Shown piece after piece: positions 1 through 31,000 of a stretch of DNA of 64,000 nucleotides; within the stretch, counting starts at the first letter, position 1, and every line of letters begins with the position of its first letter. Location of the stretch: positions 1 to 64,000 of the forward strand of contig JAQGBZ010000055.1 in assembly GCA_034687125.1 (NCBI GenBank), read 5' to 3'. The notes beneath the pieces are model-generated. The model ran no database searches. It saw only the letters and a program-made list of their open reading frames with translations, and was not told where the DNA came from. Made by a program: the position numbers and the translations under genes. The stretch comes from Neelides folsomi (lineage: Eukaryota > Arthropoda > Collembola > Neelipleona > Neelidae).

Positions 1-1693
1 CCTCCTCCATCACCACCTCCTCTGTGGGCGCCTCTTCTGCCACCGCCTCCTCCTCCTCCAGAATAGCCACCTCCACCACCACTTCCTTGGCCACGGTCTC
101 CACCTCCTCTTCCTATAAATTATTAAAGCAGAAAATAAATGAAAAGTGGTCAATTATTGAACTACTTATTAAAATCATAATTCTAAGATAATCATCATCC
201 AAGTGATATGAATTCGATAAATTAGGCTGGGCTTAAGCAGACGTTCCCCTAAAATCTAACACAGGTTATCAGGTTACAGTCTTCGACGATTCTAGTTTAT
301 ATTTAACTTCGTTTGAATTTCAACAATTCTTTTCAACAACTCTTTGTTCATTTTTTCATTTAACATTTTACTTAATGAATTAACCTATTATACAGAATAT
401 TTTAATACAGTTATTTAAGTTTCAATATAGTGCATACAGATACAGATATAGTTTAATTATAGAAGTTTAGAAATGAATAATTTAAATAAGAGAAAAGTTC
501 ATTTGACACATCAAGAAGATCGCATGATCGATAATGTTTACAAAATGCTTGAGTCTTTGAAAATTGGCAATAATAATGAATTCATAACATTCAAGCAAAC
601 AACACAAAAAACAAAGGTATTTCATTATTAAAGATAAAATTAAAATATTTGTTATATTTATGAATTGTTATTTTACAAAAATTTTAATTAATTTGAAATT
701 AGTTTGTCAAGCTGAGAGCGTTACTTACAGGATATCATAAGAACACTGTTATCCAAGCCAGAAAAAGGGTCATTGAGAACAATGATAATAAAGAAAACTC
801 GACAAATGAAAAAGAAAGGAGAAAAAGAGTAACAGAAATTGAGAATTTCACTTCTGATGTCATTAGACGAATTGCTTATAAGTTCAGTCACAGTAATTAG
901 ATTTAAATTCAATTATTCATTCAATTAAAGAATTAATTAAAATAATGGAATTAATACATTTGATTCAGAAATATTCCCAACATTTTATAATCTGTTATGC
1001 TATGTTACTAAACGGAATTTCAACCAAACCATTATCGAAATAATCAAAATGTTTGAACAAGGGTGTAATCTTGTTACTGCACAACACTGGAAAAATGCAA
1101 TTGAACACAGCCGAAAAGAAGTCAAATATTGGGAACTTAATAATTTACTTGATCAAATTGAACCTGTAATTATTAATTTCTCAGCGGATTCATCCAGCAG
1201 CGAAGATTCTGACTCAGATTGAACATCTACTACTTAAGTTTGAGTTTTGATGCTTAATTTCGTTTTAAATTTTTAAAGAAAATAGTCATATAATATTAGT
1301 ATTTTTTAATTAGCTTTAATAAATTATTGATTTATGAAACTATAATGAAATGTAACATCATCATCTTTTGGTAACGGTGGAAATTTTTCCGCGAATTTTA
1401 AAACTCAGATAGTTTGCTTATTGGAATGGGCTATAATTAAAATAAATTGAAAGTATAACAAAGCCTTTTATAATTAATTAAAACATATTAATATTCCATG
1501 TTAAAAATTTATAAAACAGGTAGGGGACCTGTCTTAGATTTTGGGGGGACGTCTGCTTAAGCCTAGCCGATAAATTACAATACATTTTTACGTAAAATAT
1601 TATTTATTTAATATAATACTCTTTTAAAAGATTCGACAATAAATAACAGCCTGAATATTAGTATATTATACCTCTCCAGCCTCTATCTGCCAT
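1..1693 (-). CDS. RGG/glycine-rich protein, N-terminal two exons (partial, runs off left edge)
   Basis: Exon 1 is 1672-1693: ATG at 1693, then donor GTATAA from 1671. Exon 2 runs from an AG acceptor to 112 and off the window at base 1. The exons join in phase 1 to give MADRGWRGRGGGDRG followed by Gly-rich RGG/GYSGG sequence through about residue 45. RGG-rich N-termini occur on RNA-binding proteins, including Argonaute-2, fibrillarin-like and hnRNP proteins. The visible part has no folded domain, so the family cannot be named; Argonaute is one candidate. The intron between the exons is about 1.56 kb and holds a complete DNA transposon. RFC1 lies upstream on the same strand. The start is supported by the phase-consistent join; function is not known. 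Confidence 0.6.
225..1568 (+). mobile_element. TIR DNA transposon with 9-bp target duplication, in intron 1 of the RGG gene
   Basis: The element has about 42-bp terminal inverted repeats at 225-266 and 1527-1568. Both ends read GGCT(G/A)GGCTTAAGCAGACG inward and match over nearly the whole 42 bp. It is flanked by identical 9-bp copies of GATAAATTA at 216-224 and 1569-1577, so both ends are intact. Total length is 1344 bp. It lies in antisense orientation to its host gene if the plus-strand ORF marks its coding strand. The TSD length resembles Merlin or MULE elements rather than TA-targeting Tc1/IS630 elements. The encoded protein (separate entry) is what makes classification awkward. Confidence 0.88.
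473..1222 (+). CDS. Transposon-encoded 195-aa protein, transposase-like ends without the catalytic core
   Basis: Three exons join in frame: 473-616, 703-892 and 969-1222, with GT-AG borders and phases 0 and 1. The N-terminal about 110 residues resemble the helix-turn-helix part of invertebrate DDE-superfamily proteins, with HQEDRMIDNVY, LLTGYHKNTV and a basic stretch leading to VIRRIAYKF. The C-terminus (HWKNAIEHSRKEVKYWE, IEPVIINF, then an acidic Ser/Asp tail SSSSEDSDSD) resembles the C-terminus of the same proteins. The roughly 200-residue DDE core expected between them is absent; after IFPTFYNLLCYV the sequence goes straight to the C-terminal part. The ORF is otherwise open. The family match is from memory and unchecked. 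It could be a non-autonomous relic, a repressor-type derivative, or simply not yet decayed. Confidence 0.55.
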
Positions 1694-2432: not shown

Positions 2433-5400
2433 TCATTTCTTCCGGCTTCCTCTTCCTCCTTTGGATGAAGACGCTTTGGCCTTCTTTTCTTTCGGCTCAT
2501 CATCATCATCGTCGGCCTTTCTGCTTTTCCCCTTTGAAGCCGTTTTCTTCTTCATCTTCACCATCGCATCATTCTCAACTTTCTCATCTTCCTCTGGATT
2601 TTCTTCCTCCTGGTCGTCTTCATTCTCAAAGTCTTCAACTCCTCCACCGCCTCTTCCCCTTCCTTTTGTAATTTTAACGACCGAATAAGGAAGGACCTCT
2701 TTGTTTACAAGACGAGTAAATGCGGATTTTGTCTTCGTTTCAACTTTTTCCATTGGATCTCTCATTCCTGGCCATCCGCTCAATTCAAAGATTGAATCCA
2801 AGTCTTCACGTTGCAAGAAATATTCCTATTGCAAAAACAATAATTTATAATCAATATCGAAAATCTAATGTTCTTTTACAGAGATTTAGAATTCATGTTT
2901 TAATTTTCCAAATATCTAACCTGCATGGTTTGAGCCGCTTCATTAATTTCCCCTTTAGCCAATGGATTCGCAATTGCCCTTCTTAGATAAGGAACATAGT
3001 CAAGATTCAAAGCCTCGACACTTCCACTTGTAACAAGATGAGTGTGCCCATGAATCGTGTGAATAAGTCTTGATCGTTTGTTCGTATTGGAATTCTTTCC
3101 TAACCAAAGAGGGAACTGAATTCCAGACATGTAATTTCCAACCATGGCTTCCCCAGGAAGATATGAAGAGAAAACTGCTTGTGTGGGAAGAAGCCCCCAA
3201 TTGTTACTCGAACGAATTTTTCTTTCAACCAAATCCCCTGTGGCTAATGCTTCAGCCGCTTTTGACAAAGCCATTAAAGTTTTCAACGGGTCACATCTGG
3301 AAAAAAGTTTGGTTTTTTTATTCAATTGAGTTTAATTAATACATTGGAAAATGTATGTTTAATATAATGTTTTGTTTACTGAGCTGCAGCTGGAGTTGAT
3401 CGCAAATAATTCTCTTGCACGAAAAGAGGACCAAATGAATAATCGTAAAAGAAAAGATCCATTTTATCCTTAATGGACATTTTAGCATGATCCGCCGCAT
3501 TGAAAACTTTCTTACAGACGTCCCAAAATCCAAGTCTCGTATCTTTATCAGCAGATGCAATTCCAGGAGTGTTTACAATGTCTTTGTACATTTGAAGTTG
3601 GTGAAGAATCTGACGAATGTCTTGGTCAGTTGAAATGACCAGTTTTTGGATTGCTTCGGGGCTCAGCTTAACTTTCTCTCTATAGCAAACCGTCGTAATG
3701 AAGCCTTTGAGCTGTTCGAATCTCGGCTTAGAAAATCTGCAAATTGATAAAATTCCAATTATAATTTTACTTCATTATTTGTATAATAAAAATCATAATA
3801 ATAATAAAAGATATAATATCAGGAAAAATTTTTAGTCGTATTTCTAATTTAATTCACCTAAGATCAAAGCAGTAATTTGAGAGAGTTCGAATCTTTTGAT
3901 GATTTCGATCATTGCAAATGCAAATGAGTGGAATTCGTGAAGTTTTTATTAAATCGATCAACTCTTGAATTCCTCCTCGATCTTCATTCCCACTCATTCC
4001 GTCAACTTCGTCCATAATCAAAACGTGTTTTCCTGTAAAATAGATAAAATGAAGTACAAATAACTACATATTTTAAGAGGTCGATTGTAATTTGATGAAA
4101 TTATGGTATTTTTGGTCTTACGAAAATTTCCATCCTTTGAATTCACAGATTTCCCATTGATTGTTTTATTCTTGAGGGAATCCGCCACCATTTCATGGAG
4201 CCCTTTCTTATTCCTCGTGTCGCTAGCGTTGAGTTCATAATAATCATAGCCGAGTTCTTTGCAAACGAGATGAGCCGTCGTGGTTTTTCCAACTCCAGGA
4301 GGACCGGACAACAACGCGCATTTAAAAGTTCTTCCTTCTGGATCTCTCTGACCAGGCCAAGAAGCTTTCGCAATATCCGATGCGGATTTGTGAATGGAAA
4401 ACCAATTTCGAAGCCATTTGTGAAGTTTCCCCGCATTTGAACTTTCACCTGCTTGCCCTACAATTTTATTCATTGCTGTTGGTTTGTATTTGTCAACCCA
4501 TAATTGTTGAGGCTCGAGGTTCATTTCAACTGCTGAAGCAACTGCTGGTTTTGTTTCTTCCCGAGTCAATTTTTTAATCCTTTCTTCTTTTATGTTCTCT
4601 TTTAATTTACGAACTTTCTCTGGGACTTCAGTTTTTACTTTTACTGGTGAAGGCTCTGTAGGTTTGACCTTTGCTTTTCTTGGTGACCTGACACTGTCGA
4701 GCTGAATATTGGCTTTGGCCGGCGAAGATTTGGGGCTTTCAACCTTCCCTTTGGCAGGCGAAGATTTGGGATTTTCAACCTTCCCTTTTACAGGGGAAGA
4801 TTTCACTCTTTCAGCCTTCGTTTTTCTTGGTGAGGATTTGGGTGTAACTGTTGGCTTGACATTGGCTTCTTCCTCTTCATCGTCAAAGAGCATCATTGTC
4901 TGTTCCGTGATATTTCCATCTGGATTCGATTTCCTGATAATCTCGAAGAACTCGTCTTCGTTTATTTGAGGAATTCCGAGGTCCCTAGCCTAATAATATA
5001 TGATCAAAATAAATTAATATTCCTTTATTAAAAAGGTGTAATTATAGTTTTTAATGATAATTATTATAGCTTACCTTTTTTAACTTGGATTCCCCTGCTT
5101 CTTCTCCAATGAGTAAATAAGAACTTTTCTTACTAATTGACCCTGTCACTCTTCCACCGTATTTCTTTACGATGTCTGCGGCTTCATCCCTTTCGATTGA
5201 ATCCAAAACTCCGGAAATGACAAAGGTGAGATTTGCGAGACAATCAGGAGCTCCGACGGGAATTTCCTTTGAACCCAAATTCCTCGGTTTTCCACGAGCC
5301 ATGAACTTGAAATAATTGGCTCGTTGAGCGAGTTTTTTATCATCAGGTGTTTTATCGCTCTTATTTGAGTCATTAAAGGAATTGTCGGGTGTTTGTACAA

Positions 5401-22000: not shown

Positions 22001-25000
22001 AACACGATTCCATCCATCATTGATTCCATCAAATCTCCTCCTTCGTCCAAATTCATAAATTGGCTATACGCATTAACTGCCTGTACTTTCAAATCTTGCT
22101 TATCATTCTCGTCGAGCTCAAGTGAAGCAAAGGAGGACGCGTAGCAAAATTTCCCATAATTGTACCAACCTTCTTTATACTCCCTGTCCAACATGGTCGC
22201 GTCTTCGTAATAATTTCCAATTAATGTGACTTTATCAGACGGCTCTTCCTTCCTAAAACCCTCCTTGATAAATTCATCATAAAACGACTCATTCCCATCC
22301 AACCTTTGAGCGAGATCCAAAAACAACGGCGCCCGGGTCGGTTCAAGATCAACTTTAAATTTATCAAGACATTTTGATAATTTGAGATAACACCTGGCAG
22401 CTTCTTCACCCTTTTCATAATGAAGTCGAAGGAGGATTAAAAGAGCATTGGTGGGATAATTCAAAATGTCCTTCACTTTGGGAAATTTCTTTCCATTTCC
22501 GGATTCCAGTGAGAAATTGTACAAAGATTTGAGCCATTTTTGAACAAATGAGTAGTTTTTCCCTTCAATCATTCTCAGTCCTTTAAGCAATTCCACTTTT
22601 TCCTTTTCTTTTTCATTCACTTCTTTGTTGGTCAAAATGAGATCTTTGAGTTTGATCAAAGTGAGCATTTTGAGTGAAGTTGGAGGTTCGTAATAAATCA
22701 AATCGGTCTTGTCTTTGGATTCTGATTGTAAGTCGAGGATCCGTTTGGTTTCAAGCTCAGTGAAGGAGGATAATAAAAGTTTGGGAAACAGTGGATCCAT
22801 TTTACCACTTTCGAGCATGTTGGACCATTCCCCAAGCCCACCTTTGAGGATCATTTGACTTCTTTTGAAAACATCATTTGCTAAATGGTTTTCCTCATCT
22901 TGACCTTTAACAGATTTCTCATATAGTCGGACAGCTTCTTCATAATTTTCATTAAGGTAAAGGAAAGCAATTGTCTCGTTCATTCCTTTTATTCCGATTT
23001 TATCTAAATCGATAAAAAAAATTTATTTTAATTATCATTTCAATTCATCACTAACTTTTCAGTATTCATAAATTAAAATATACCAGAATACCATTCGCTT
23101 TAAGATAATTATAAATTCCTCAAGAGTCCTAACTCCTTACCATCTAATTGTAAAAGAGCCTTGCTCGCCCCTTTGGAATCTCCAAGTAAAGAAGCGTAAA
23201 AGTAAGCAGTAGAAGGAAATTGTAACATTAGGGAAAGTTCCAACAAATCGGGCCGCATTCTTTTCATCCATTCATTACAAGGAACTTTATTGGTAATGAA
23301 AAACGTCTTGACTTGCTAAAGGTAAACGATAATCAACAATTAGAAATTAGCCAATTTGCAATAATTTGCATATCTTATAAATAAAAAAATAGCTAAACTG
23401 ACCTCTGGTAATTGACAATTCACAAACGAACTTCCATTTATACAATTAAAAATGGCTTTCTCCAATTCAAAAATAAAAGTTAATTTCCATTTGGGAAAAT
23501 TCTGCTGCCCTTTCCCCATCCGATATTTTTTAAAGAGATGTTGCAAATGTGCGAAGAAATCTTGTGGTTTTCCGATCGGGCTTCGAAGTTTGGACCGAAG
23601 GAGGAAATCCACAGATGCAATGATTTCGTTCTTGGTGAAAGTTTTAGACTTTTGAGATGGGGCCGAATTCTTCTTTTCGAACTTAAAACCTGGGACATCC
23701 ACCAAAAAGAAATTGTAAAGGAAAGAGTTAAACTCTTCATAAGTCATTGAATTGGTCCCATTCTCCACTCGGGGTTCATCTACCACTTTTTTCCCATTCT
23801 TTGTCACTTCCTCTTTTCGCTTTAGAACCTCGAGAGGAGTTTCAAAAACGAGGATTGAATTTTGATTGTTCAAAACATTCAAAAGCGCTTCGGTCATTTT
23901 CCCATCTCCTTCATTCGTGAGCAGAAATTCCAAACATGTGGTCCTGGTCGCATCTCTGATCACGCTCTATAATGAATTTTAACATTTCATTATGAATACA
24001 AATTCTATTTTTCATACAATCCCAAATTCCAATTCTATTTGCAAGTTTATATTTATGTAGAATAATCAAAAATCCAATAATCACTTAATTTAATACATTT
24101 AATAGATACAATTAAATGTTCTTTGAAAATCATCACATTATACAGGTAAATGTTATAATGCTAATGTTATATAACGAAGTGCATGATTATAACGTTGTTC
24201 ATTTCTTGGACAATTATGCGGAAATAGCGATCAGAAGTCATCGCCTCGAGGTGTAAATACTAAATGTATTTTGTATACGCAATAAACAAGTTTGAAGGGT
24301 AAGGACACCTGAATAGCCACAAATTTATTCAACCCCAGTGGATTGATCATCCAAAGAGTTCTCTGCCTTTTCGCATCTCTCCTCAGTACCCAAGGTCACT
24401 TTCAAGAGATCACACACGCATCCACACACCTCAACGCAAAAAGTAAGTAGATAAACAATACATAGCCCGTGGACTATGTATATCTATAATTAACCAATTA
24501 CATACATATAGTATCTGTACAGAGTGAGTCTAAAGTCGCCTCAGATTTTTTAATCCTTGGTTTCTGAATGTCTGAAGCGACTTTAGACCCACCCTGTATA
24601 TGTGCCCTATACCTGTGATTTTCATAAGTTAATTATAAACCAAAAAAACTACATTAGTTGCTGTAAATGTAAAATTAAGATTTAACAATAAAATTAAATT
24701 TTAATCAATAGGAAACTCAATGCAGTGAATTTTAACTCTGAATCATGGGCTCAAGCGAAAGTAAACTCGAACACCAAGGGGGATTGAAAGTGAACCAAAT
24801 TAATTTCCTGGTCAATGGAAAAGAATTCTCCGTCTCTCCGGGGAAATCTCCTCTTCTCCCTTCTACAACCCTCCTCGACTTCATCCGTGACAATGCCGGG
24901 CTAAAAGGAGTCAAATGGATGTGTCGCGAGGGTGGCTGTGGAGCTTGTCTCGTCTCCGTTAAAACAAAAGACCCCACTACAGGAGCCGACAGAATCCGAT

Positions 25001-28000
25001 CCATCAACTCCTGCTTAACTCCTTTGCTCTCCTGTGATGGTTGGGCCATCACAACTTCAGAAGGAACCGGAAATTCCTTCAAAGGTCACTCTGACATACA
25101 AAAACGAATAGTTTCCTTCGGCGGTTCCCAATGCGGATTCTGCACTCCCGGAATGGTCATGAATATGCACAGTCTTCTTAATTCAAAATCTCCCTTGTTG
25201 CAACAAGACGTCGAGGACAATTTCGACGGAAATATTTGTCGGTGCACAGGATACAGACCAATCATGGACGCTTTTAAAACTTTCGCCGCAGATGCACCGC
25301 CGCATTTACTTGCACAATGCAAAGCAATTGATATTGAAGAATGTGACAAAATCATATGTTCAAAAAATGCGAATAATCTTGATCACCACGAAGATTATGA
25401 AATAACTTTTTTGACTTCTCCATTGCACTTAACCCTGGAGAATGATGAAGAATGGGTTAAACCAACAAGTCTCAATTTATTCTTCGAAATAATTGAGAAA
25501 TTGAAAGAGTCCGGTAAAATGTACAGGCTCATTGGGGGAAATACTGCCAATGGGGTTTACCGTGATAAGCGGAATTATACCCATTATATTGATATTAATG
25601 CAATTCCCGAATTGACAACGGTCAAATTTCCCGGAGAATTGTTGTCCATCGGAGCCGGGACGACAATAACAGACGTTATTGAATTCCTCCTCAAAGCATC
25701 TAAAATCTCTGGGTTTAAATACACTCTTCAGATGGCCAATCATTGGAAACGTGTGGCCAACCGCCCTGTCAGAAATGCAGCAACAATTGGTGGGAATTTG
25801 ATGATCAAACATGTCCACAACAAATTCCCTTCTGACATTTTCACCGTTTTGGAAGGAATCGGAGCAAGTTTAAACGTCGCTCTGGCTCCTTCCATTCGAA
25901 CTACAATTTCCTTAACTGAATTCCTCACCACTCCAATGACCTACAAAATCATTCTTTCCATCAATTTACCACCCCGAGATGACAAGACCTTCGTTTTTCA
26001 ATCTTACAAAATTTCCAAAAGATTCCAAAATGCTCATGCTGCAGTCAATGCCGCCTTTTTATTCAACATTGACAAAACCAACGATAAGTTTAAAATCCTG
26101 GAAACTCCTCGGATTATCTATGGCGGGATAAACCCCGCATTTGTTCATGCGATCCAAACTGAGGAATTCCTTATAGGGAAAAACATCGCTGATTCCACAA
26201 CGCTCAAAGGAGCTATTGACAATCTGACCCAAGAAATGTCCCCAGACTCAGAATTGCCATCCCCACCTCCCGAATATCGGTCACTAGTTGCAAAATCCCT
26301 CCTATACAAAACATTCCTCTCTGTTTTGGGGCCAAAGGCCACTGAGAAGGTTCAATCCGGAGGAAAGGGAATTGAACGGAAATTGACTTCCGGCAAACAG
26401 ATTTTTGATTCAGATGAAAAACAATGGCCCCTTTACCAACCCGTGAACAAATTAGAAGGTCTTTTACAAGCCTCAGGAGAAGCCGAATACATCAATGACA
26501 TTCATCCCTTACCTAACGAACTTTTCGGCCACTTTGTCTTAAGCTCAATTGGGAAAGGAACACTACAGAATATGGACGCTTCAGCCGCCTTAGAATCTCC
26601 CAATGTAATTGCCTTCATCACTGCAAAAGATATCCCTGGAGAAAACGACTGCATGAACGATGCTACAATTGAGGAATTATTCGCAAGCAAAGACATCCTC
26701 TACAATGGTCAACCATTGGGACTCATCGTGGCATCAAATCGAGATGATGCCATCAAAGCAGCCAAATTAATCAAAGTCTCTTATGCCAATATTCAAAAGC
26801 CTGTTCTCACAATTCCATCAACAAAAAATGGCCAGCTTTCGCAAGAACACAAAAATCGATTTACCATCAAAGGCAAATTACAATCATTGTCATTAAATGG
26901 TAATGAAAAGTTAAATGACAATATAAGAGGAATTAAAAGTGCAAAAGGAGAATTCCGAATCGGGAGCCAATACCATCACCATATGGAAAACCAAACTTGT
27001 CTTGTGGTTCCCAAAGAAGGGGGAGAAATTGACGTTTTTGCCTCAACTCAAGCTATGAGCCTTCTCGAAGGACTCCTCACCAAAGTGCTTAAAATGCCAA
27101 ATCACAAGATCAATGTCAACGTGCGACGTTTAGGTGGAGGATTTGGTGCAAAAATTACTCGTTGTGGACAAACAGCTGCAGCTGCCGCTGTGGCCGCAGT
27201 CGTAACCGGTCGCCCTGTCCGAGTCGTTCTCGACCAACAAACCAATATGCGAATGGTCGGGAAAAGACTCCCATATTACGCCAAATATTCTGCGGATTTT
27301 GATGAGAATGGGAAGATTGTGAAATTGGAAGCAGATGTAACATGTGATCCCGGATTTACTTCCAATGAGACAACATCATTTTTTTCAACGATTCTCATGA
27401 GGAGTTGTTACAATACAGATGGATGGGATTTAAACGGCCTTAGTTTCAACACCAACACTCCGGGCAACACATGGACCAGGTCGCCTGGGAGCACCCAAGG
27501 AATTGCTATTATTGAAACCATCATGGAGCACATTGCTGCTGTTCTGAACAAAGATCCACTCCAAGTCAGGTTGGCCAATTTAGCCACAAAGGATAACGAC
27601 AATGTTTTGGAAATCAAAGAAAAAAATACAACCGAAGATCGGCGATTAGCATATGGCAATGCCCATTTCCAGCAAAATGGTGAAAATCCAATTCCTAAGA
27701 TGATCGAAGATGTTAAAAAATCCTCAGATTATTCAACAAGGAAAGCTTTCATTGAAACGTTCAATGCAACCAATCGATGGAAAAAGAGAGGAATTTCAAT
27801 CATTCCAATGAGATATCCAATTTCATATGGCTCCCACGGATTCTCCACATTTGTATCAATTTACACGTCCGATGGGTCAGTTGCCATTTCCCATACTGGG
27901 ATTGAAATGGGCCAAGGGATCAATACAAAAGTGGCCCAAGTGGCAGCTCATGAGCTTGGAATTCCACTGGCCAAAATCAAGGTGAAGCCAGCGAATAATT

Positions 28001-31000
28001 TAACCGGAGCGAATTCCTCAGTGACTGGTGGAGCAACTTCGAGTGAACTTGTGGCCTACAGCACGACCCAAACATGCCAAATTCTTTTAAATAGATTAGA
28101 AGGAATTAAAAAGAAACTCGGCCCTACTGCTGGATGGGAGAAGATTATCCAAGAAGCGGGTCAGGAAGGTATTGACCTCACGGCAACTTATAGGGAAACG
28201 AACCGAGACGGATTGAAGGGATATGCAGTTTGGGGAGTGAATGTCACAGAAGTAGAAATTGACATTTTGACCGGAGAACATAAAATTGTCCGAGTTGACC
28301 TTTTGGAGGATGCAGGGCAAAGTTTAAGCCCACAAGTGGACATTGGACAAATTGAAGGAGCTCTTGTGATGGGACTCGGCCTCTGGACCACGGAAAATAT
28401 TATTCATGACCCAGAAACCGGGAGAATATTAACTGACCGAACTTGGGAATATAAACCACCACTTTTGAGAGATATTCCGGAAGATATGAGGATTACAATG
28501 TTGCAGAATACGGAGAACCCTTTTGGAGTTTTACGTTCAAAGGCGACAGGTGAGCCGCCGCTTTGCATTGCAGTGGGGATAGTTTTTGCCATGAGGGATG
28601 CTATCAATTCGGCAAGGAAAGATGCCGGAAATTCTGAGTATTATGAACTCAATGGACCTGTCACTCCACAAGATATACTCAACCTTTCTTTGACGACCCC
28701 TTCACAATATGGATTTTAACTATTTTGAATTTAACTAATTCTTCAAATGCAATTAAATGTAAAAATAATTTATAATAGAGTATTCTAAAGTTAGAATGTA
28801 TGGTAGTATGGATAAAAATTGTTGTTATACGCCTTATACGCGCGCGCGCGTACGCGCATTGTTTTGTAAAATTACCTATATAATTTTTTATGAGACTATT
28901 TGATAAAATAACTAAAACTGTAAGGAAATGGGAATAAAATTAATTAATAATTACAATAATAATATATTTAGAGGCCAAACACCGAACAAGTAAAAATTAT
29001 GATAAATAGTGATGACTTGATAACTCACAATGTTCTGATAATTCGGATCCGTCGTAAAGAACTCAAGAAGTGCGGGAAGGTTATTGGTTAAACTTGGTTT
29101 AGATGCTGAAGTCAAGATGAAACGCTCATAAAATTCAGGATCAAGCTTGGTCAGAATTGAGGCATATGAAGATGAAGATTTGAGAAAGTCAAAAATCCAA
29201 TAAAAAATCCAAACATCCCAACTTAAAGATGTCCTTCCGATTTGATTCCCTCCTCCCAAAAGTTCGAGCCACAGCTTCATTAATTTAGGGAGAAACCTAA
29301 AATAAAATTTTAACATTTAATTTAAAAAAATCAAACTATCAAGGATGGTCCTCTATGATAGGCCCACCATTCAAATATTTTTAATTCAGGATTGGATGAT
29401 GTTAGCAGTTAATTTAATTTTGAATAAGGGATATATTGTCTATATCCCTTCCAAATTTCACATGATTTCCTTTAAAAATGAAAAAGTTATTGAACTGTAA
29501 ACTTTGAATAAGGGATATATAGACAATATATCCCTTATTCAAAATTAAATTAACTTAATTGCTAACATCATCCAATCCCGAATTAAAAATATTTGAAAGG
29601 CGGGCCTATCATAGAAGCCCATCCTTGGTATTTGTGTAACACAAAATATAAATTAAGGTAATTGAGAAATAAATAAAATAAATATTATATAACTACATAC
29701 AATAAAATAATTTACTTACTGGGAAGAATGGGAATCAGTTGAAAAGGTGTGTTTCTGAGAGGCAATGCTCGACACAAAATGGGAATGGGTAATGCAATGA
29801 ATTTTGAGCAAATGTAGTATGCTGGTCCAAGCCTTTGAATTATGCACAAGTTGAATGAGATCAGCAAGGATGTCAAAAATTGGCGGGTTGAGGGCCCAAA
29901 GAGATAAAATTGAATTTGATCTATTGGACGCTGGAAATTCAAAAAAATCATTTAAAAAATCGAAGACGATATAAACTATTTAGATAATAAATAAAAAATC
30001 AGCTTTATTACCAATATCACAAATGCAAGCGAGGACAAAAAGAATCGTCTCTTGATTCTGAGTGCACCGTCCTTCCTCATCCTTCAACTTTCCAACCAGC
30101 CATCCATACACTTCTTGAATGAGGGGTGCATTCCGCGTACGAAGCAACGTATGAACAATTTCCACCAAGTAATTGACATCGTTCACATGGACTTCATCAG
30201 AAATGGTTTTAAGGAATTTCATGACTAAGGTGATAATCGGACGACTTTCTTCACACATCACAGATTGACTTGAAACGGTTTCAATCCAAGAGATGAGACT
30301 TCCGTAAAAGCTCAAAAGACTCAATCTTGGCCACTTTTTCCAACCAGAGTTAGTGGAGTATTCTACGAGTTGGAACTGAAATGATAAAAAACAGATTAAA
30401 TAAATAATTTAATAAACCTAATTTACTATTTAATTTAGATTAAAGTAAATAAATAAAGTAAATACTTTTAAAAATTCTCGAATGGAAGGTCCATCTACGC
30501 CCGTGTTGATTAAACTAAAACAGTCATTGAGAATGTCAATCAAGGCAATTTTACATCCATTACATTCCTTTCTGTTCAGTTTCCAATCTTGAAGAATTGT
30601 GAGAATATTTCTTGTAAGTTTCTCAGCCGAATCGAGGAGATATTCCTTATCATTCACAGATTGGGTGGAGAGAAGGGTCTTTAAAGTGCTAAAATGTAAA
30701 TTATTTAAATAAATGCATATGATTTAATTTTTAACATTTTAAAATAATGCTAGATAATGAAAATTACTTGGCGAGTAAAACGATTCTTTTGAGCTTCGGT
30801 ACGTCTTCAGACTGTGAGCCACGGTTTATTGCAAACCCTGGAATTTCCATTTCTTCAATAAGTTGGGACACGAGGGTCGTGACAAACGAGGGATCTCGAA
30901 TGAAATATTTAGAGAGTTTTTCTAACGACTCGGAACAAAGAATGAAAACGTCCTCAGGTTGATCAATATCAATCATCCATCCAATTATCACATCAACAAA

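Follow-up and report, generated by a model that had tools for sequence, protein, structure and literature searches.

A core-less IS630/Tc1-like transposase remnant nested in a putative non-autonomous Merlin-type element of Neelides folsomi

The locus and its surroundings

The window analysed here is a stretch of 64,000 nucleotides from the collembolan Neelides folsomi (contig JAQGBZ010000055.1, positions 1 to 64,000). Near its left end lies a composite transposable element, situated beyond the 3' end of a gene for the large subunit of replication factor C (2433-4989, minus strand), which has an RFC1 C-terminal domain and an AAA domain and carries a 36-bp tandem repeat in open frame at 4713-4819. 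Further along, at 24742-28719 on the plus strand, one open frame of 1325 codons matches seven Pfam domains of a molybdopterin-dependent enzyme of the xanthine dehydrogenase/aldehyde oxidase type.

The composite is bounded by terminal inverted repeats (TIRs) and a target-site duplication (TSD), as follows:

216..224, no strand: left TSD copy of the outer element, GATAAATTA, 9 bp
225..266, plus strand: left TIR of the putative outer Merlin-type element; likeness to other termini extends to about 293
1527..1568, minus strand: right TIR of the putative outer Merlin-type element; similarity to the C285 element begins at about 1493
1569..1577, no strand: right TSD copy of the outer element, GATAAATTA, 9 bp

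The outer TIR is 42 bp long (GGCTGGGC) and starts with 5'-GG. Its two copies are complementary at 38 of 42 positions (90%), whereas the best 42-nt inverted repeat across 100 Markov-resampled versions of the same 2500 bases reaches 32 of 42; the 9-mers on the two flanks are identical, with a chance of about 2e-5 at the local composition. The outer TIRs and TSD are far beyond chance—on this point the first-pass annotation, which had described 42-bp TIRs and a perfect 9-bp TSD, was right.

Relatives of the outer element

Relatives were sought in the window's own assembly (75.1 Mb in 840 contigs; C numbers denote these contigs). The search of the genome for further copies of the TIRs, which the first-pass annotation had suggested, yielded an element with the same termini on C285 as well as single ends on C210 and C295. 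The C285 element (C285:46541-47066) is 526 bp long, matches the window's outer element in the first bases of both ends, and is flanked by its own, different, perfect 9-bp TSD, GAACTATTA; a 9-bp TSD is thus present in both of the outer-type copies found with two ends. The copies on C210 and C295 have one outer-type end each and share only termini with the window, and in its 6-kb stretch C210 shows no second copy of the TSD. A scan of the genome with the TIR pattern gave seven places at three or fewer mismatches; this count alone proves nothing, because the reversed control pattern gave six. We set aside as chance a further candidate on C328, three mismatches from the pattern, in view of the same control.

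The superfamily of the outer element is suggested by what lies beside related ends. With the C285 element as query, a match was obtained at C45:200290-200392, 237 bp downstream of a match to PF12762 (DDE_Tnp_IS1595) at C45:199793-200053. Two frames of the gene remains on C45 were scanned against Pfam: the second scores 30.8 bits with DDE_Tnp_IS1595, where the cut-off is 27, and nothing matches the first piece. The C45 copy stops inside the terminal repeat. Relatives of the first piece are present on C582 (75%) and C440 (67% and 77%, in two pieces), both with PF12762 matches, and the inspected 3' sides of these two copies terminate in GGCTGAAGTAAAGCAGCGG. Close homology between C582 and C440 ceases at the end of this sequence, beyond which 14 of 30 bases agree, and GGCTGAAGTAAAGCAGCGG therefore marks the edge of the element. 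Compared ungapped with the outer TIR, the C582/C440 end shows 6 mismatches in 19 positions, a level that shuffled versions of those stretches also reach in 7 and 9 of 200 cases; what gives this end weight is its position at the element's edge. When small gaps are allowed, this end and its subterminal sequence align with C285, C295, and both ends of the window element; pairwise blastn between the window element and the C582/C440 ends gave no match.

The surroundings of four of the 18 Merlin matches in the assembly were viewed (C45 and C406, and the 3' sides of C582 and C440), and among these no Merlin gene with the exact TIR of the window was seen; the more distant Merlin gene on C406 has no termini of the outer type. 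The window element itself has no DDE_Tnp_IS1595 transposase. MULE elements, which have TSDs of 9-11 bp, were considered as the outer superfamily as well; the site of one of the 18 MULE matches in the genome (C579:2500-9000) contains no match to the outer TIR, and Merlin is preferred because of the ends on C45, C582, and C440.

Merlin elements are described as having 5'-GG termini, TIRs of 24-462 bp, TSDs of 8 or 9 bp, and a DDE_Tnp_IS1595 transposase (PMC8101967). The TSD and the 5'-GG TIR of the outer element fit the ranges given there. The window element thus resembles the Merlin superfamily (IS1016/IS1595-like) in its 5'-GG terminus, long TIRs, and 9-bp TSD, and in having termini related to ends that lie beside the remains of DDE_Tnp_IS1595 genes in the same genome; it differs in having no Merlin gene and in containing foreign transposon sequence. 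We conclude that the outer element is, by these sequence comparisons, a putative non-autonomous element of the Merlin type.

The nested transposon

The interior of the composite belongs to a different set of relatives. Its main features are as follows:

303..1431, plus strand: nested fragment of a TA-flanked, IS630/Tc1-like family, left TIR lost; homology to C65 and C29 begins at about 303
1332..1431, plus strand: right TIR of the nested element, with TA next to it at 1432-1433; matches the ends of the family
997..1003, plus strand: approximate site of the internal deletion that took out the catalytic core, with 12 bp left opposite about 565 bp of C138

At least 45 matches to the window interior are found in the genome, the window copy included, and many of these loci lack the outer TIRs. 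Five copies (C65, C29, C5, C75, and C138) carry the sequence of window 1332-1437, whole or in part, at each end as an inverted pair. Nine copies of the nested family, picked from 22 loci for their common DNA and similar TIR start, were read by eye: TA adjoins both ends in seven (C138, C63, C5, C29, C75, C325, and C30), and the other two (C65 and C147) have one imperfect end each. In C65 and C29 the family TIR shortly precedes the sequence that matches the window from about 303 onward, and the left TIR is therefore missing from the nested copy in the window; the left end of the outer element meets this shortened fragment at about 294-303, and the nested copy retains only its right TIR, ending at about 1431 and followed by TA.

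The family as a whole is rich in MITEs and apparently decayed, with several short copies, long TIRs, and varied internal deletions (C63, C5, C65, and C29). Five places carry hairpin-like mini-elements of about 120-135 bp, each built from a pair of short, directly adjoining copies of the family's TIR that are inverted relative to each other (C280:46728-46862, C3:364216-364345, C19:435992-436112, C49:143227-143345, and C30:69849-69983). The assembly also contains 74 DDE_3 matches alongside the MULE and Merlin matches counted above; some of the DDE_3 and MULE matches lie in frames longer than 300 codons, and certain families of DNA transposons may accordingly be younger than the nested one.

The predicted transposase frame and its missing core

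The nested fragment contains a predicted three-exon frame:

473..616, plus strand: first exon of the predicted core-less frame; C138 and C579 carry homologous DNA
617..702, plus strand: predicted intron 1, GT..AG, 86 nt; from sequence only
703..892, plus strand: exon 2, N-terminal part of the predicted transposase (...FTSDVIRRIAYKFSH)
893..968, plus strand: predicted intron 2, GT..AG, 76 nt; splice signals retained in C138
969..1222, plus strand: exon 3, start of the core region (IFPTFYNLL) joined to the C-terminal tail (TKRNFNQT...SDSD)

With the predicted splicing, the exons join openly over 588 nt to give 195 aa plus a stop, with GT..AG at both introns, in agreement with the three-exon reading of the first-pass annotation. 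The GT and AG of intron 2 occupy the same places in the diverged C138 copy; intron 1 has no counterpart there, most of the stretch being missing from C138.

The catalytic core that this frame lacks can be followed in its relatives. C138 aligns with window 440-997, intron 2 included, and then has the additional stretch of about 565 bp opposite 12 bp in the window, with decayed core pieces that include ...FNSIELIWAQVKGYVAKRDFKQT. A DDE core is partly present in C138, C215, C63, C325, and C320 and absent from the window copy, which retains the N-terminal region and tail on either side of an in-frame deletion junction. In a count of eight plus-strand rows of 28 (seven relatives and the window), the motif PIELIW stands directly upstream of the tail in four of the seven relatives (C63, C325, C215, and C320) and is absent in three. 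The core piece on C215 matches positions 96-145 of DDE_3 at E 4.5e-5, a weak partial match under the curated cut-off, and two of 47 matches to the C215 query (C743 and C1) overlap listed DDE_3 matches; the 195-aa product itself has no Pfam family match even at E 10.

These comparisons support the interpretation of the 195-aa frame as an in-frame, core-less remnant of a probable IS630/Tc1-like (DDE_3-like) DDE transposase, and the earlier description of a core-deleted DDE-type transposase is borne out by the core in the relatives. The nested family resembles IS630-Tc1-mariner elements of the DDE_3 type in its long TIRs, the TA at its ends, the LPPYH..NPIELIW motif of its members, and the acidic C-terminal tail; unlike such elements, the window copy has neither a left TIR nor a catalytic core.

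Possible functions of the 195-aa product

A product without a catalytic core should not transpose anything. The first-pass annotation had pointed out that core-less transposase derivatives can act as repressors of the P-element KP type or become host DNA-binding proteins; on this reading the 195-aa product would be a KP-like repressor of its IS630-like family or serve the host as a DNA-binding protein. In KP-type P elements the middle of the transposase is lost in frame and the N-terminal end is kept, and the window frame shares both properties. In its favour, too, the frame is open for 195 codons with the N-terminal part retained, the splice signals of intron 2 are conserved in C138, and differences from C63 and C5 fall mainly at third codon positions: at positions 1, 2, and 3 they number 13, 7, and 22 against C63 and 13, 4, and 27 against C5, of 68 each (9, 3, and 13 of about 47 against C147). 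However, such a bias is expected of an ancestral transposase lineage in any case, and the comparison with the nearest copy, C65, gives no excess constraint on its few sites, with differences of 3, 1, and 2 at the three positions, or 6 of 118 coding sites (5.1%), against 8 of 199 noncoding sites (4.0%).

Searches of the genome with protein and DNA gave no intact close relative or source gene among the matches listed: after the window copy, the highest protein score goes to C63, at 62% identity and with two stops, and the C65 match is 88% identical over 40 residues only. No second copy with the same core deletion occurs among the matches listed for the assembly, and it is in this respect, in the lack of one of the family TIRs, and in the lack of support for repression that the window copy departs from the KP type. 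Given a single copy, matches that include no intact close source, and a comparison with C65 that shows no excess constraint, the idea of a repressor or host gene gains no positive support, and we regard it as very improbable; most likely the product does nothing.

Origin of the composite

The first-pass annotation had treated the locus as one complete transposon. The termini and the gene have separate sets of relatives; because of this, we reject the view that the locus derives from one transposon by internal deletion, and it is better read as two unrelated elements, one nested in the other. We consider it highly probable (about 0.87), from the sequence comparisons above, that a non-autonomous Merlin element (TIR start GGCTGGGCTTAAGCAGACG, 9-bp TSD) holds a decayed, unrelated transposon of the TA-targeting IS630/Tc1-like kind. 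A Merlin transposase acting in trans would have inserted the outer element at GATAAATTA, and a member of the second family would then have entered it at a TA, either as a deletion derivative on arrival or to be deleted afterwards. Deletions would have cost the nested copy its left TIR and the central part of its transposase gene, and the core deletion would happen to preserve the frame, leaving an HTH-plus-tail protein of 195 aa that is readable on paper.

The perfect TSD and 90% TIRs that enclose the whole unit would also be expected if a Merlin-type element had captured a transposase fragment as cargo, forming a Pack-type composite of 1344 bp that inserted at GATAAATTA at once. Two observations make this unlikely: no other copy of the composite is present among the matches listed for the assembly, and the right end of the nested fragment is the family's own TIR end followed by TA, the outcome expected if the family's transposase had inserted it. 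That TIRs, TSD, and gene occur together in the window might instead point to one element of an unrecognised superfamily, with an IS630-like transposase and a 9-bp target duplication; this is hardly credible, as the copies on C285, C210, and C295 have only termini in common with the window, and relatives of the gene have different termini and TA. We give equally little credence to a Merlin-type element that took up and mobilised a spliced, expressed, core-less IS630-like gene, whose product would be a DNA-binding protein acting on another superfamily.

Implications

Under the nested reading, the composite looks like ordinary genomic debris, made of two known kinds of DNA transposon. If it were shown to move or to be expressed—and nothing here shows either—it would be an example of capture across superfamilies. 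The remark in the first-pass annotation that a 9-bp TSD is odd for an IS630/Tc1-like protein, which normally duplicates TA, proved well placed, as the TSD belongs to the putative Merlin-type outer element; the pairing appears odd because one element is nested in another. The apparent anomaly of a Tc1/IS630-type gene with a 9-bp duplication is thereby removed, leaving two superimposed elements.
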